Below, piece by piece: positions 36,001 to 49,385 of a stretch of DNA of 64,000 nt (within the stretch, counting starts at the first letter, position 1; every line of letters begins with the position of its first letter). The stretch is from an uncultured Akkermansia sp. (GTDB lineage: Bacteria > Verrucomicrobiota > Verrucomicrobiia > Verrucomicrobiales > Akkermansiaceae). Location: the NCBI GenBank assembly GCA_947628035.1, contig CANQYL010000001.1, positions 19,465-83,464 of the forward strand, read 5' to 3'. The position numbers and the translations under genes are program-made. The notes under the pieces are model-generated. The model saw only the letters and a list, made by a program, of their open reading frames with translations, was not told where the DNA came from and ran no database searches.

Positions 36001-39000
36001 AGCGCGCTGATGGCGGCGGACCTCGGTAAGGTGACGTTGAGCGGCGCGTCGGCGACCATCGCGGTCGGGAATTTCGACAACGCCCCGACGCTGCTGACGC
36101 TGGGTGAGGGTTCGTTGAGCAGCGGCATGCTGAACATCGACCTGAGCGCCTTCGAGGATCTGGCTGTATTCGCCGATGAAGGCAAGCAGTTGTTCGCGAG
36201 CGGCGACTGGACGGAGAACGTCACGCTGACGGGCTACTCGGATGAGGATCGTCACGTGCTGCACCTGACGGCGGACGGCAGGATCGTGTACACGGAACTC
36301 ACGGGTGAGCTGACGTGGAACGGGACGGACGCGACCGGCGTCTGGGGCGGCGAGGGCGACGGCAAGGATTGGGACATGACGACGGACGGAGTGGGCGCGG
36401 CAACGGCGTTCCGGAATGAAGGGACGGAGTCCGTGGTGTTCGGCGGCACGGGCGCGGGAACGATCACGGTGAATGGCTCGATCACGGCGGCAGAGATGAC
36501 CGTGAAGGCCGACGGGTACACCTTCACGCAGGACGCGGCTGACGGCGCGGATCGACTGAGAGTGCTCAAGGACCTGACGCTGGATGTGACGGACGGGACG
36601 GAGGGAACCACCTTCGAGGTGGACACCACCGTGGCAGGAACGTTGACCGGCGCGGGCGACATGAACCTGAAGAGCGCGATGATCGTGAGCGGTGCGCTGA
36701 CGGATGCGTATGCCGGCACGATTACGCTGGAGGGCGGCAGCCTGACGGCGACCGGCGAGACGAAGGTGAGGGTCGGTGACGGAGAAAACAACTCCGTCAC
36801 GGGCGCTGCCGGAGAAGGAGGACTGACCGTGCATCTGCAGGAGAGCAGCACGGGCAGCCTGACCACGGCGGGAACGGTGGCGATGGACGGCACGTTGGGC
36901 GGTGCGCTCACCGTGAACGGAGGCGCCACGACCGCGAATGATTTGACGGTGGGCGGATTGAACGGCGAAGGCGCGGTGGACGGCAGTAAGCTGACCATCA
37001 CGGGAACGACGGGCGGCAGCTTCGGCGGCACGCTGGATGTGGAGGCGCTGGTTGTATCCGGCACGCAGAGCTTCACGGGCACGACGAACGCGGTGGGATC
37101 CGCGACGGTGAACGCCGGTGAGCTGAGCTTCACGAACGCCCTCACGGCGAGCGGAACGGTGACCGTGGGCGACGGCGGCGAGACGGCGGACAGCACGTTG
37201 ACCCTGTCGGCAGGCGGCACGATCGGCAGTCTGGCGGTGGCCGGCGACGGCGCGGTGAACATCGGCGAGGCGCAGAACCTGCAGGTGAAGAAACTGAACG
37301 GCGCGGGCAGCATCACGGGCGGAACGTTGACCGTGGAGACGGATGCGGAGGGAGGCAGCTTCGGCGGCGCGCTGGATGTGGAGGCGCTGGTCGTTTCCGG
37401 CACGCAGAGCTTCACGGGCGCGACGAACGCGGTGGGGTCTGCGACGGTGAACGCCGGTGAGCTGAGCTTCACGAATGCCCTCACCGCGAGCGGAACAGTG
37501 ACCGTGGGCGACGGAGGCGAGACGGCGGACAGCACGTTGACCCTGTCGGCAGGCGGCACGATTGGCAGTCTGGCGGTGGCCGGCGACGGCGCGGTGAACA
37601 TCGGCGAGGCGCAGAACCTGCAGGTGAAGGAGCTGAGCGGCGCGGGCAGCATCGCGGGCGGAACGTTGACCGTGGAGACGGATGCGGAGGGAGCGCAGAG
37701 CTTCAGCGGAAGCATCGGCAGCGACCTCGTGTACAACGGCACGGGAGCGGACAGCAGCCTGAGCGTCTCCGGGACGCTGGGCGGGGATGTCACCGTGACG
37801 GGCGGCACGCTGGAGTTGGTGAGAAGCGACGCGAGCGTGGCGGCGCAGGCGACGGGCAAGCTGACCGTGAGCGGAGAGAACTCGAGATTTGTCCTGAGCG
37901 GCACGGGCGTGACTCATGTGCAGAGCGCGGAGGTGACGGGCGGCACGATATCCATCGAGGGCGGACAGCTCGTGGTGGACGACGCGATGACACTGAGCGC
38001 GGGCAGCGGGCTGAACATCCTCCTGGGTGAGGCGACCGCCGAGAACGCGAGCGCGGCACGTCTGGCCGGCAACGAGAAGAGCATCACGCTGACGGGCGAC
38101 GGGAAGCTCGGGCTGACCTTCGGAGGGGAGGACGGAACGGAAACCCTGAAGCAGGGGACGTTCTACCTGGTGAGCGGACTTGACGTCATGAACGGGGATG
38201 CCTCCAGCTACTTTGACACGCAGGCGATCGAAACGTGGGTGGGGAGACAGGGTCGCGGGATTGACTGGCACCTGAATTTTGAGGGAGGACGCCTCGTGCT
38301 CGACCTCGCGGAGAAGGTGGCGGACGACTGGTACTGGGCTCCGGACACGGAGACGGATCCGAGCGATCCCGAGAAGCCGGAAGACAAGCCGCTGGTGTGG
38401 GGAGACGGGAATACGGAGCACTTGCAGGACGGCGAGGGCAATGATGTGAAGCCGCCCGCGAAGCCGGACGAGGTGCCGGTGGTGCACTTCACGGATGAGA
38501 AGAAGGGCGGCAGCACGGTTGAGGTGCAGGGTCAGGCATCCGCCTCGGGTATCGTGGTGGAGAGCGGTGACCACGTCTTCACCGAAGGCACGAACGCTGA
38601 AGGCACGAACGGCAGCATCAACGTGACCGGCGATCCGGAATCCGCGGGCGCCAGCGGCTACACCGGCAAGCTGACGGTGGAGGGCGGTTCGGCGGAACTG
38701 CAGGTGGAGACCAACATCAAGGATGTGGAACTGAAGGGCGGCAAGCTGACGCTGAGCCACGACAAGGCGCTGCATGAGGACGTGAATGTGAAGGTGAGCG
38801 CCGGTACGCTGGCATTCGGCGAGAAGGAGAGTGCGCTTGACGCTGAGACCGGCGACGGCGAGCTGCACGCGACACCGTGGCAGAACAAGGTGTCGGTGAC
38901 CAAGGACGCCTTGCTGGATGTGCAGGTGGGCAAGTCCTACGTGCAGTTCATCGAGAAGGCGGAGCAGAAGGGCGAGACTGTCGACAAGATCGAATATGTC

Positions 39001-44073: not shown

Positions 44074-44079
44074 GCATGT

Positions 44080-44114
44080 ACGATGGACGATGGACGATGG
44101 ACGATGGACGATGG
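44080..44114 (+). repeat. Heptad tandem array (ACGATGG)x5
   Basis: acgatgg repeated five times directly after the giant gene stop. Confidence 0.97.
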
Positions 44115-44206
44115 AAGCGAAGCGGTAGCGTAGCGGAATTTCCGGGAACACAGGTGCGGTGACAGAAAGAAAGCGGCAGGAGGAGACGGCACCCGACGGT
44201 GACTTG

Positions 44207-44239: not shown

Positions 44240-44246
44240 AACTATG

Positions 44247-44400
44247 TACGAATTACGAATTACGATTTGGATGCTAGCACGCTACGCGCGGGGGAGCAGA
44301 GCGATAGCGTAGCGGGCGGTAAAGCGGTTGGACAAAAGCGCAGCTTTTGCCCGAAGGGCTCAGCGCTGATGGAGCGGCGCTGAGTCAAGATGGCATCGCA
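44247..44400 (+). repeat. Modular intergenic element, copy A
   Basis: acgaattacgaattacgatttggatgctagc...gggggagc...GCGGGCGGTAAAGCGG-TTGGACA-AAAGCgcaGCTTTTGCCCGAAGGG-CTCAGCGCtgatggagcgGCGCTGAG-TCAAGATGGCAT. Confidence 0.8.
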
Positions 44401-44499: not shown

Positions 44500-44523
44500 C
44501 ATCGTCCATCGTCCATCGTCCAT
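44500..44523 (-). repeat. Inverted heptad array (CCATCGT, reverse complement of ACGATGG), about 3 copies
   Basis: catcgtccatcgtccatcgtccatg; opposite orientation to 44080..44114. Confidence 0.95.
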
Positions 44524-44710
44524 GAATTGATTTACGATTTGGAGAATTCGCGCTGCGTGCGGGGGAGCGGAGCCTCAAGTTTCGCAAAAATCGTCATGAG
44601 AAATAGACATTGACTTGCAGCGAGGTCCGTGGTAAAAGGAAAGAAGGATGAAATCTGAGGCGAAGGAGGGATGTCCTCTCAGTCCTTTTGGAAAGAATAT
44701 AACGGCGCCG

Positions 44711-46155
44711 ATGAACATTAAAGAGATAGAGAGGCTTGTAGAGAGGGGAGAGAGTGCAACGCTTGAGTTGAAGCAGAGCACGGGGGAACTCCATAAAGGG
44801 ATGGAGACGGCATGTGCCTTCCTCAACTCTGATGGTGGATGGTTGCTCTTTGGCGTAACCCCCGGGATGAAAATTATTGGTCAGGAAGTGACAGACAGGA
44901 CACGACAGGAGTAGCTGCTGCCCTGCGCAAAATGGACCCGACCGTTGAAGTCGAAGCAGTATATGTGGAAGTTCCCGGCAGACCGCGTCATTACGTAATC
45001 GCTCTCTATTTCGATCCCCTCCGGTGTACGAACGGTCCGTACTGCTACGATGGTCGTCCGTTTTACAAAGTAGAGAGCACGACGGTGCTGATGCCGCGTA
45101 TTCTGTATGAGGAGAAATTACGCCGGAGCAACCCTCAACGATTTAGTTGGGAAAACACGCTTGCCAACGGGATCGGACCGGAAGACTTGGACATGGAGCT
45201 CATGCACCAGACTTTGTACGATGGCATTAGTCACCGCATTCCGGCGTCAACGATGGTGCTTCAGGATCCTGTAAAGATTTTACGCAAAATGGGAGTTGTC
45301 GGGGACAATGATGTGCTTTCAAATGCAGCCCTCGTCCTTTTTGGAAAAGACCCCGCTTTGAGACACCCCCAGTGCAGGGTGCGTCTTGCTCGTTTTGAGG
45401 GTACGGATAAAATAGTGATTCGGGATCAGACGGTTTGTGCGAAAAATCTTTTCGAACAATACAATGCCGTTGTGGATTTTTGTTTGAAGCACCTCAATCT
45501 CAGTGGACGCGTGGAAGGGGCTTTTCGCATGGACACTCTCACGGTTCCCATGGACGTGATTCGTGAGGCGGCGGTGAATATGCTGTGCCATCGTTCGTGG
45601 GAGGCTCAGAATATGGTTCCCACGGTGGCCATTTACGAGGATCGTATCGTGTTCCAAAATCCGGGTGCTTTCCCCTATGGTACGCAATGGCAAGATTATG
45701 CGGACAATCGGCTTAATTCCCGTCCGCCGAATCCAACCATAGCGGATGTTTTCTACTGTCGTGGAATCATTGAAAGCTGGGGACGCGGCATTGGATTGAT
45801 TATGGAAGAATGCCGCAAGAAGGGATTACCTCCTCCCTCATATGAAACCTTAGCTTCCTCTGTTAGTCTGATCATCCGATTTAAGGCCAACCTAGGATAT
45901 TTAAGGAACTCTGCGACGCAATCAGCGAAGGAAAGCGCGAGCGCGCGACGTATCCGAGAAAAGATTCTCGCTTTTTGTAGCGAGCCGCGCAGTATGCAGG
46001 AGATTACCGCTATGCTTCGGATGAAGAGTGTAAACTGGGTACGCAGTAAATATGTTCTTCCTCTCCTCGGCTCTGAATTAAAATACACTCAGCCGGATAG
46101 ACCTAAAAGCAGGACTCAGAAATACGTTGCAACATCGAAGTCATACGAATCGTGA
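44711..46155 (+). pseudogene. AlbA_2-type (Schlafen/divergent AAA-like) ATP-binding transcriptional regulator, interrupted by a 1-nt frameshift
   Basis: MNIKEIERLVERGESATLELKQSTGELHKGMETACAFLNSDGGWLLFGVTPGMKIIGQEVTDRTRQE* (ends 44914) continues in the neighbouring frame as VAAALRKMDPTVEVEAVYVEVPG... to 46155, including REAAVNMLCHR and SWGRGIGLI. One G missing at about 44909-44911 restores the frame. Confidence 0.8.
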
Positions 46156-46156
46156 A

Positions 46157-46302
46157 CATCGATGGACTGCATAAGTTACTGTATAAGTTCTATTCAATCA
46201 CTGTATAAGTTAATTGGTTTATTGTTAATAATTAACGTAATCTATGGCATCGATGGACTGCATAAGTTCTGTATAAGTTCCACCAAGTTACTGTATAAGT
46301 TA
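46157..46302 (+). repeat. Six CTGYATAAGTT 11-mers in two 91-bp-spaced blocks
   Basis: CTG(C/T)ATAAGTT at 46167, 46179, 46201, 46258, 46269 and 46291. Each block starts CATCGATGGACTGCATAAGTT (46157 and 46248). Confidence 0.93.
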
Positions 46303-46341
46303 AGATCCCAAATTCCGGGCGGCATTTTTGGGTGCTAGCGT

Positions 46342-46455
46342 GTGAGCTATGCGGAGCATAAGCACTATGTCTTACCACTTCTGGAATCCCATCTGGAGCT
46401 AACAATTCCTGAGACTCCAAATAGCAGACAACAAAAATATAAAACGAGGGGAATG
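46342..46455 (+). pseudogene. Orphan C-terminal fragment of a second AlbA-type ATP-binding protein
   Basis: ...KHYVLPLLESHLELTIPETPNSRQQKYKTRG parallels ...SKYVLPLLGSELKYTQPDRPKSRTQKYVAT at the end of the 44711..46155 gene. Confidence 0.65.
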
Positions 46456-46486
46456 AAAATCACCCCCAGTCATCACCCCCAGTCGG

Positions 46487-46605
46487 GGCGCCTTCGGCGC
46501 CTATTTACGATTTACGATTTGGATGCTAGCGCGCTGTGCGCGGGGGGGGGGGGGGGGGGGGCGGAATTTTGGAAACAAGGCGAAAGGCTGGTTAGAAAGG
46601 TACAT
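46487..46605 (+). repeat. Modular intergenic element left of AbiE, with G20 tract
   Basis: GGCGCC-TTC-GGCGCC-TATTTACGATTTACGATTTGGATGCTAGCGCGCTGTGCGC then 20 consecutive G (46542..46561), cggaatttt...gttagaaag. Confidence 0.9.
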
Positions 46606-46746
46606 TGAGATTTTTGGTCATTGTTCTTATAGAAAAAAGTAATATTTTCATATAAAGATATTTCATATAATTATCTTGTTTTATTTAATTTATGAATGAT
46701 TGAAAAATTATCTTGAATGCGGAGAAAATTATGTTAAACTCAGGAC

Positions 46747-47382
46747 ATGATGGGGGTGGCAACAAGTAAGCTTTCTTTGGAAAGAAAAATCCTCAACTAT
46801 CTGCGTCGTTGGGGAAGGGGCTGTGTTTTTTCCAACAGCGATTTTTTTTCGCTTTCCAATGATGCGAACGTTGCGTGTACACTGAACCAGCTCAAAAAAC
46901 GGGGTACAATACGTCAATTATGGCGCGGACTCTATGACTATCCCAGATACAGCAAACTACTCAGGGAATGTCTTGCGCCCGATTTGCGACTTGTCGCTGC
47001 CGCACTCGCTCGTAAATACAAATGGCACCTACAACCCTCGGGGAGTGCGGCTCTCAATTATTGGGGACTCAGCACGCAGCTCCCCACACGGCCGCTCTAC
47101 TTCTCGAGTGGTCCCAATCGTTTTTACAGGATCGACAATCGTACGATCGAGTTCAAGCACGTTTCTTCGAAGCAATCACAGCTTGGCGATGAACAGTGCG
47201 AGCTCTTTATTCAAGCCATCAAGGAACTGGGAGACTTGAGTCTTTCTGACGCCTACCTTCCGAAAATCAAGACGATTCTTACTCCGGAGCTTATCCGGAG
47301 TCTCAACAAGGCGACCCCTTTGTTGACTGAAAAGCTTCGCTCATCCATTCGTACCATGATCATGCTTTCCGCCAATGAATAA
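46747..47382 (+). CDS. AbiEi-like antitoxin (DUF6088 / type IV TA antitoxin family)
   Basis: N-terminal winged-helix-like region and QPSGSAALNYWGLSTQLPTRPLYFSSGPNRFYRIDNRTIEFKHVS. Overlaps the downstream nucleotidyltransferase by 8 nt. Confidence 0.82.
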   Translation: MMGVATSKLSLERKILNYLRRWGRGCVFSNSDFFSLSNDANVACTLNQLKKRGTIRQLWRGLYDYPRYSKLLRECLAPDLRLVAAALARKYKWHLQPSGSAALNYWGLSTQLPTRPLYFSSGPNRFYRIDNRTIEFKHVSSKQSQLGDEQCELFIQAIKELGDLSLSDAYLPKIKTILTPELIRSLNKATPLLTEKLRSSIRTMIMLSANE

Positions 47383-48406
47383 CTTTATCAATCGCCCTAA
47401 ACGAGAACGACTCGAGCTTATCGGTCAGACTGCAGCCAGGCTGGATATGGATCCTGCTGCGATTGAAAAAGATTTCTGGGTTTGCTGGATATTGCAGCGT
47501 TTGTTTCAGTCTCCTTTGAAAAAATCCATAATCTTCAAGGGGGGAACATGCTTATCCAAGGTATATGGTCTCATTAAACGTTTTTCGGAAGATATAGATC
47601 TCATCTTGGATTGGTCTGATTTCTGTACCGAATATGATTTGAATCCGGGGCAGCACTATGGGAAATCCGGCAGAGAGAGGATGATGGAAGCTCTGGATGA
47701 ATGGAACGCGCAGCAGATTGCACAAAAGATTCTCCCGGCCGTTCGAGATTGTTGCGGCGATGTCTGTTCCGCTGACATATTTCAAGAAACTCCGGAGATC
47801 ATTGCTGTTACCTACCCGAGAAATTACGAGTCTTCATACATCAGACCTCGTGTCTTGCTGGAAATAGGTCCGAAAGCCGCCTGGAACCCGCATGCGGAAC
47901 ACACGGTGCGTCCATACATGGCAGAGATATATCCTCACCTGTTTCATGGAGCGGAAACAAGCGTTGTAGCGAGCACAGCCGAACGATCTTTTTGGGAGAA
48001 AATCACTATTCTCCATTCACAGGCGAACCGTCCTACTGCTTTGCCGCTACGATATGCCCGTCACTACTATGATGCCGTTATGATGGCGCGAAACGACGCT
48101 CTTAAACAAAGGGCTTTTACTGATGTGAGGTTGCTTTACCAAGTGTCATCTTTTAAGTACTACTTTTACCGATCGGGTTGGGCTGATTATCCCCATGCTG
48201 TTCCAGGCTCCATGCATCTGATGCCATGCGAGACGATCAAAGCTGACTTAGAACTTGATTATGCAAAAATGAAAAAAGAAATGCTTCCGCACGATGCTCC
48301 GGAATTTTCTGTCCTCATAGAAGAAGTCGCAAAATTAGAGCTAGAGGTCAATCAATTGCCTCCGCTTCATCTCAATGTCAGGAATTATCCGACTATGGAG
48401 TTTTGA
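47375..48406 (+). CDS. AbiEii/AbiGii-type nucleotidyltransferase toxin
   Basis: KKSIIFKGGTCLSKVYGLIKRFSEDIDLILDW: diagnostic GG(T)xLSK...RFSEDIDL motif. Confidence 0.92.
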   Translation: MNNFINRPKRERLELIGQTAARLDMDPAAIEKDFWVCWILQRLFQSPLKKSIIFKGGTCLSKVYGLIKRFSEDIDLILDWSDFCTEYDLNPGQHYGKSGRERMMEALDEWNAQQIAQKILPAVRDCCGDVCSADIFQETPEIIAVTYPRNYESSYIRPRVLLEIGPKAAWNPHAEHTVRPYMAEIYPHLFHGAETSVVASTAERSFWEKITILHSQANRPTALPLRYARHYYDAVMMARNDALKQRAFTDVRLLYQVSSFKYYFYRSGWADYPHAVPGSMHLMPCETIKADLELDYAKMKKEMLPHDAPEFSVLIEEVAKLELEVNQLPPLHLNVRNYPTMEF

Positions 48407-48426
48407 AGTAATGGCGAGGGGAGGGG

Positions 48427-48496: not shown

Positions 48497-48550
48497 CGCC
48501 CTTACCGCCCGCTTCGCGTGCGCCCTGTACGGGGCCGTCGGGCGTCTTGC

Positions 48551-48680
48551 CTATTTACGGATTACGATTTACGATTTGGATGCTAGCGCGCTGTGCGCGG
48601 GGGGGGGGGGGGGGGGGCGGAGCGGGAGCGTGGCGAAATTTTCGGGAACGGGCGTAAAAGGTAGCTAGAAAGCGGCGGGA
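48551..48680 (+). repeat. Modular intergenic element right of AbiE, with G19 tract
   Basis: TATTTACGGATTACGATTTACGATTTGGATGCTAGCGCGCTGTGCGC then 19 G (48599..48617), cggagcgggagcgtggcgaaattttcgggaacgggcgtaaaaggtagctagaaag. Confidence 0.92.
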
Positions 48681-49159: not shown

Positions 49160-49385
49160 GACGGCCCCGTGTGGGCGCACGCGAAGCGTGCGGTAAGACC
49201 GATTGGACAATAGCACAGCTTTTGCCCGAAGGGCTCAGCGCCGATGGGGCGGCGCTGAGTCAAGGTGGTGCTGAAGCGTCAATTTACGATTTGGATGTTC
49301 GCGCGCTATCGCGCGGGATGCGGAGCGGGAGCGCAGCGGAATTTTTGGGAACGGGCGTAAAGGATAGCTAGAAAGAGACGAGAAT
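49160..49385 (+). repeat. Modular intergenic element, copy B plus adjacent TTTACGATTTGG module
   Basis: CGCACGC-gaa-GCGTGCG-GTAAGACCGA-TTGGACA-ATAGCacaGCTTTTGCCCGAAGGG-CTCAGCGCC-gatggggc-GGCGCTGAG-TCAAGGTGG, then CAATTTACGATTTGGATGTTCGCGCGCTATCGCGCGGGATGCGGAGCGGGAGCGCAGCGGAATTTTT. Confidence 0.82.

Follow-up and report, generated by a model that had tools for sequence, protein, structure and literature searches.

The centromere and operator parC of R1-type plasmids consists of two clusters of direct repeats of about 11 bp, which flank a short AT-rich spacer. At the AbiE toxin-antitoxin locus, AbiEi binds an operator made up of inverted repeats in the promoter (PMC3985639, PMC7319586). Bacterial Schlafen-minimal histidine kinase-wHTH proteins have already been described as a defence family; in at least 1017 taxa, Schlafen-kinase-winged-helix proteins are reported to be neighbours of BREX and related defence systems, and anti-phage work on bacterial Schlafen proteins is cited (PMC12839542).

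The locus considered here lies in the window, i.e., the whole 64,000-nucleotide stretch of Akkermansia DNA that was analysed. Its Schlafen gene resembles the proteins of the defence family in having SLFN_AlbA_2, HATPase_c_4 and a C-terminal domain of winged-helix type, and on plasmids its relatives form part of type I restriction and BREX operons. It differs from them in being frameshifted and in adjoining an AbiE locus, and also in the repeat array that follows it, such arrays not being described for the family in the available part of the source (PMC12839542). As in parC, this array has two clusters of repeats of about 11 bp around an AT-rich spacer, but it is chromosomal, stands 3' of a gene and not 5', and has a unit sequence private to its gene. 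A parC-like partition site was rejected, as ParM/ParR genes are absent from the neighbourhood.

The array and the gene that precedes it

The motif CTGYATAAGTT is present in six exact copies on the plus strand, at 46167, 46179, 46201, 46258, 46269 and 46291, and a scan of the whole 2.36-Mb Akkermansia genome gave these six only. With one mismatch allowed, 0.4 copies are expected by chance in the window, and six were reached in 0 of 100 shuffles. The copies are the best-preserved units of two tandem arrays, each of four units of about 12 bp. Block 1 (46157–46213, plus strand) begins with the lead CATCGATGGA, followed by units at 46167 and 46179, a degenerate unit at 46190–46200 and a unit at 46201; in block 2 (46258–46303, plus strand) the units at 46258 and 46269 are followed by a degenerate one at 46280–46290 and the last at 46291. 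Between them lies a plus-strand spacer of 44 bp and 70% AT (46214–46257), containing the CATCGATGGA lead of block 2, an imperfect palindrome GTTAATAATTAAC (46224–46236) and a perfect one, CATCGATG. The opening sequence CATCGATGGACTGCATAAGTT stands at 46157 and again at 46248, at a distance of 91 bp, and the repeat finder TRF reports 46166–46212 with a period of 12 and 4.1 copies.

The third, degenerate unit of block 2 reads CCACCAAGTTA in the window; its counterpart in the related genome G090 is CTATCGAGTTA. Both resemble the unit significantly (p 0.004 and 0.008 against shuffles); that of block 1, CTATTCAATCA, does not (shuffle p 0.10). Since each block is a four-unit array of about 12 bp, the spacings of 12 and 22 bp correspond to one and two unit lengths. 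The helical phasing proposed in the initial annotation is thus correct as far as the near-helical period goes, but the phasing is a by-product of a unit length of 11–12 bp. In G090, the 12/22 spacing is found in both block 1 and block 2, so the 11 bp in block 2 of the window goes back to a later 1-nt indel in the window lineage.

The upstream ORF ends with a stop codon at 46153–46155, and the array starts 2 nt further on, at 46157. The gene to which this ORF belongs combines Schlafen AlbA_2 with HATPase_c_4, ends in a Fic-like_C tail and is frameshifted within the AlbA_2 domain. The 5' part (44648–44914, plus strand) matches SLFN_AlbA_2 (PF04326, E 1.1e-10), and the 3' part, in another frame of the same strand (44839–46155), contains HATPase_c_4 (PF13749, E 9e-19) and a Fic-like_C domain (PF21247, E 8e-7), here called tail A. 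The initial annotation had six 11-mers at these positions, in two blocks 91 bp apart with an identical opening, directly after the stop codon of an AlbA-type gene that is broken, and all of this holds: the copies are exact, and the AlbA_2 and HATPase_c_4 parts are in different frames.

An intact homologue of 523 aa occurs in G090 (L071), and related Schlafen genes are present in rabbit-gut Akkermansia genomes. The body of the window gene is 95% identical to the G090 homologue, and the last ~40 residues diverge. All six orthologues examined end in another tail, tail B, and the window gene ends in tail A (45982–46155, plus strand), the stretch 45982–46213 being 95.7% identical to L077:3825–4056. 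A remnant of the ancestral Fic-like_C tail B is left past both array blocks, at 46353–46482 on the plus strand; this orphan is 94.6% identical to the expressed tail of L071 (4204–4333), matches positions 34–62 of PF21247 and ends in 13-bp units ATCACCCCCAGTC. From this comparison, tail A has evidently taken the place of tail B at the window locus. The AlphaFold structure prediction for the tail is of low confidence (pLDDT 61).

The neighbouring genes are an adhesin ORF, the Schlafen gene, AbiEi/AbiEii and TatA. The adhesin-like ORF is a single frame of 14,677 aa (40–44073) with an autotransporter-like C-terminus and internal repeats (339 bp, twice, at 37011–37698). A dispersed repeat, TTTACGATTTGGATGCTAGCGCGC...GCGGAGCGG, is found in nearly every intergenic gap (44241–44315, 46509–46570, 48549–48642 and 49282–49375), and truncated copies of it form the junctions of both orphan tails. 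Tandem arrays of the 7-bp units ATGGACG and CATCGTC and a G tract of 20 nt are intergenic too (44076–44115, 44500–44523 and 46542–46561). The 3' ends of L012, L013, L014 and L071–L076 carry 13-bp C-rich arrays TCATCCCCCCCAG (in L014 TCCCCCTATGATA, at least 13.5 copies); in tail-B Schlafen genes, these arrays run across the stop codon and code for C-terminal extensions that vary.

Distribution of the array and its relation to the AbiE locus

Within the genus, the exact array was found in the window genome (G000), G090 and G096 only, the genomes compared being MAG assemblies. Both blocks are present in G090 and one in G096, where tail A and block 1 stand at a related adhesin locus without the gene body. 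The difference between G096 and the window is exactly the 90 bp between two identical copies of CTGTATAAGTTAA, as expected from a deletion between direct repeats. When G000 and G090 are compared, the units are no better conserved than the spacer. A set of 388 genomes of the phylum gave one match with 2 mismatches (G138), which was taken as chance.

None of 72,556 plasmids gave a match to the array, and the phages searched likewise contained nothing like it. A mobile or phage element was therefore rejected; four matches to viral contigs look unrelated on reading. Plasmid iterons were rejected as well, because no replication initiator was found among the flanking genes examined and the plasmids and phages searched gave nothing similar. 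Of the operator or iteron layout read from the sequence at the outset, there remains a real two-block direct-repeat array that goes with the AlbA-type gene and has a near-helical period; the plasmid iterons do not remain.

A role of the array for the AbiE locus, as an operator bound by AbiEi, was also considered. Like the known AbiEi operator, it is a repeat close to an abiE locus, and abiEi starts 445 bp 3' of it on the same strand. However, it consists of direct repeats, lies 445 bp upstream and is not conserved with abiE. The AbiE pair of the window (46563–48407) is 97% identical in G090 (L136:4828–6672), where it is inverted and located upstream of the Schlafen gene, from which a HigBA-like pair separates it; its upstream region is conserved there (93% over the aligned stretch), but the array is absent from it. 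The array does not stay with the abiE promoter; on this synteny the abiE operator was rejected, and in our opinion binding by AbiEi is extremely improbable. A 15-bp direct repeat at 46646–46675, just 5' of abiEi and conserved in G090, fits such a role better and is a candidate AbiEi operator. The comparison of the window with G090 also reveals a rearranged defence/TA locus after the giant adhesin gene.

Short-period arrays beside Schlafen and Fic genes

Comparable arrays were found at the same place near other AlbA-type genes, as the initial annotation had proposed to check. They are enriched beside Schlafen and Fic genes, have periods of 10–13 bp and sense-oriented units specific to the winged-helix class, and the layout of two blocks with an AT-rich spacer recurs among them. 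In Akkermansia, genes of these two types ending in a winged helix carry the arrays 3' of the stop codon, 5' of the start codon or within the linker that leads to the winged helix; the window array itself lies within 150 nt of a gene ending in a winged helix.

The 3' ends and flanks of related genes were scanned for tandem repeats and counted at one TRF threshold. A 10–13-bp array within 150 nt past the stop codon was found in 9 of 21 Schlafen genes of the genus, picked by homology, and in 0 of 61 control ORFs (p 1e-6); at the threshold used, 12 of the 21 have no 3' array. Without the orthologues of the window gene, 6 of 18 Schlafen genes retain one (p about 7e-5, calculated by hand). Arrays within the ORF, for the most part in the linker that leads to the Fic-like_C domain, occur in 12 of 18 Fic genes as against 0 of 62 controls (p 3e-10). 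The control ORFs were taken from 30 loci within the genus, picked only for a chance 11-mer. Outside the genus, linker arrays were found in 15/30 genes, and flank arrays are rare (3/30 on the 3' side, 4/30 on the 5' side).

Periods cluster at 10–13 bp in all three positions, the score threshold also disfavouring very short periods: they are 11–13 bp in 17 of 20 arrays of the 3' flank and 10–12 bp in 8 of 9 arrays of the 5' flank. Two blocks with an AT-rich spacer of 35–61 bp are found, as in the window, at L012, L013, L021 and L022, and in L121 and L123 one gene has the same unit both in the ORF and in the flank. In the linkers, 12-bp units before the winged helix encode tetrapeptides (TPQV, TEQV, NETI, SEKM), and the linker repeats of plasmid-borne relatives from several phyla are likewise tetrapeptide-coding 12-bp units. 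Four plasmid-borne Schlafen-HATPase-wHTH genes within type I restriction and BREX operons (L233, L234, L236 and L239) each have a tetrapeptide repeat immediately before the winged helix. This class of arrays linked to winged helices, to which the six repeats of the window belong, is apparently undescribed in the searchable open-access literature.

Unit sequence follows the type of winged helix, and in the other genes with arrays the C-terminal domain is a recognised DNA-binding winged helix. Fic-like_C genes tend to have YAAG-containing units in common in their flank arrays (GGACAAGCTACA, ACAGGATAAGT, ACCGAACAAGTT, CCCAACAAGTAA, AAACATAAGA), and genes with HTH_24/MarR-like winged helices have different ones (AATTGCGCTTTA, AATTGCGCCAT, AATGGCACTATA). 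On the sense strand, flank units are more alike within than between winged-helix classes (p 0.0007 with class labels at the phylum level based on C-terminal motifs, p 0.001 within the genus only, both uncorrected for kinship); on the antisense strand, no within-class excess of similarity was found (p 0.85). This permutation test is independent of any chosen motif and is preferred to a Fisher test on a motif picked after viewing the arrays, which, with Pfam-based classes, gives p 0.002 without L126 (a broken-linker array, no true 5' flank). The window unit groups with those of Fic-like_C genes (mean z 1.45 versus −0.32 for the others, p 0.012, uncorrected for kinship). Its nearest relative is the 10-bp CTGCACAAGA from the linker of the closest paralogues, with 9 of 10 positions identical (shuffle p 0.001).

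These data also bear on a possible RNA-level element, in which the RNase domain of the Schlafen protein would bind or cleave the transcribed array, in the manner of type III toxin-antitoxin RNAs. The flank arrays are on the sense strand beside a predicted RNase gene, and for bacterial Schlafen-kinase-wHTH proteins a function as defence RNases is described (PMC12839542). On the other hand, neither strand folds above shuffles (fold z about +1) and there is no Rfam match at the gathering threshold, the unit sequence tracks the winged-helix class, and arrays are also found beside Fic genes without a Schlafen domain. We consider this explanation very improbable; type III toxin-antitoxin RNA repeats proper were rejected because of the fold value and the downstream position of the array.

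Proposed recognition by the winged helix and competing explanations

A recognition site has one strong rival, the strongest of all: the flank arrays may be functionless repeat DNA from coding linkers, left outside the gene by slippage and tail exchange. In the window this would make block 2 the linker, and the orphan tail the end, of a headless second copy. It agrees with the wide occurrence of tetrapeptide linker repeats, including those of plasmid-borne relatives from several phyla, and with the L071 locus of G090, where block 2 and the orphan tail share one open frame of 105 aa. Orientation on the sense strand only agrees with a coding origin, and in one frame the units read T-V-stop-V, which is near TxQV. 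Against it, the 3' arrays of L021, L022, L024 and L026 follow complete winged helices, and no second winged helix was found in 66 of the 67 downstream regions (the matches at L012 and L013 in this search are the C-rich repeat itself). Furthermore, many arrays inside ORFs have periods of 10 or 11 bp, repeating the DNA and not the peptide. On the other strand the window unit is encoded by no gene in 76 genomes, and an antisense coding repeat (T-Y-T-V) was rejected for the same reason. In L015 the related CTGCACAAGA is in frame, but in three species the window array stands outside the gene and has steps of 22 bp.

A decayed coding repeat had been named as the alternative in the initial annotation, and it stands in part: related units do encode TxQV-type repeats in Fic/Schlafen linkers. 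However, these units are also found in non-coding DNA beside genes whose tails are complete, which decay by itself does not account for. On balance, we regard displaced linker DNA as a substantial possibility, though a doubtful one. A silent cassette, i.e., an orphan winged helix after every 3' array, was rejected; it is found in the window/G090 lineage only and in 0 of 66 other downstream regions.

Another explanation is that the repeats act in phase variation and as edges for recombination, the number of units shifting the frame of the winged helix and flanking repeats permitting tail swaps. Since 10 or 11 bp is a common length of linker units, the frame depends on how many of them there are, and in this respect the non-3n tandem units of the relatives are like coding contingency (simple-sequence) repeats, since they shift the frame of a C-terminal domain. 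Thus, G077:C16 (L180) has one 10-bp unit fewer than G002:C84 (L015) and G079:C63, and its tail is out of frame; the Fic gene L111 (G084) has a shorter 11-bp array than L107/L108, also with the tail out of frame. The replacement of tail B by tail A, the 90 bp between CTGTATAAGTTAA copies by which G096 differs, and repeats on both sides of the tail in L123 and L205 are consistent with recombination. Schlafen/Fic genes with 10- or 11-bp linker arrays (L180, L015, L111 and L107/L108) are, on this evidence, candidates for phase variation; the unequal unit numbers come from different species, so that switching within a population is an inference. The window array differs from contingency repeats, being non-coding and past the stop codon, so it cannot switch the frame of tail A. 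Moreover, frame switching leaves the two-block non-coding arrays unexplained, and downstream silent tails are not general. As an explanation of the arrays as a whole, it seems improbable.

The tie between unit sequence and winged-helix class suggests that the tail recognises its own array. In our opinion, the array may tentatively be regarded, with slightly less than even confidence, as a site recognised in cis by the C-terminal winged helix of the gene alongside. In the window it is probably a relic, since the gene is frameshifted and its tail was exchanged. The near-helical spacing is the ground for proposing cooperative binding: the gene's own winged helix would bind the array cooperatively on one helix face, or would bind it on the transcript. 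The outcome could be autoregulation or tethering, in which the protein is kept near its own gene. The binding, the form of nucleic acid bound and the consequence are what we infer from comparison of sequences. Class-specific units could also have been passed down with the gene family, or be copies of the coding repeats in the linkers. In the open-access literature searched, no account was found of the control of expression or targeting of Schlafen-kinase-winged-helix proteins.

A wider proposal, which we consider rather unlikely, is that Schlafen/Fic winged-helix genes in general carry their own recognition arrays, made of short repeats at helical spacing, whose sequence co-evolves with an exchangeable tail. 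Such arrays could stand in the 5' or the 3' flank or within the coding linker; the TPQV/TEQV/NETI repeats would partly be by-products of these DNA or RNA recognition arrays, and the non-3n versions would double as on/off switches of the tail. If this is true, the tetrapeptide repeats of the linkers would be explained, and frame switching would be a second way to turn these genes off. If the winged helix does read a private array beside or within its gene, the ligand of many such proteins would become readable from sequence.
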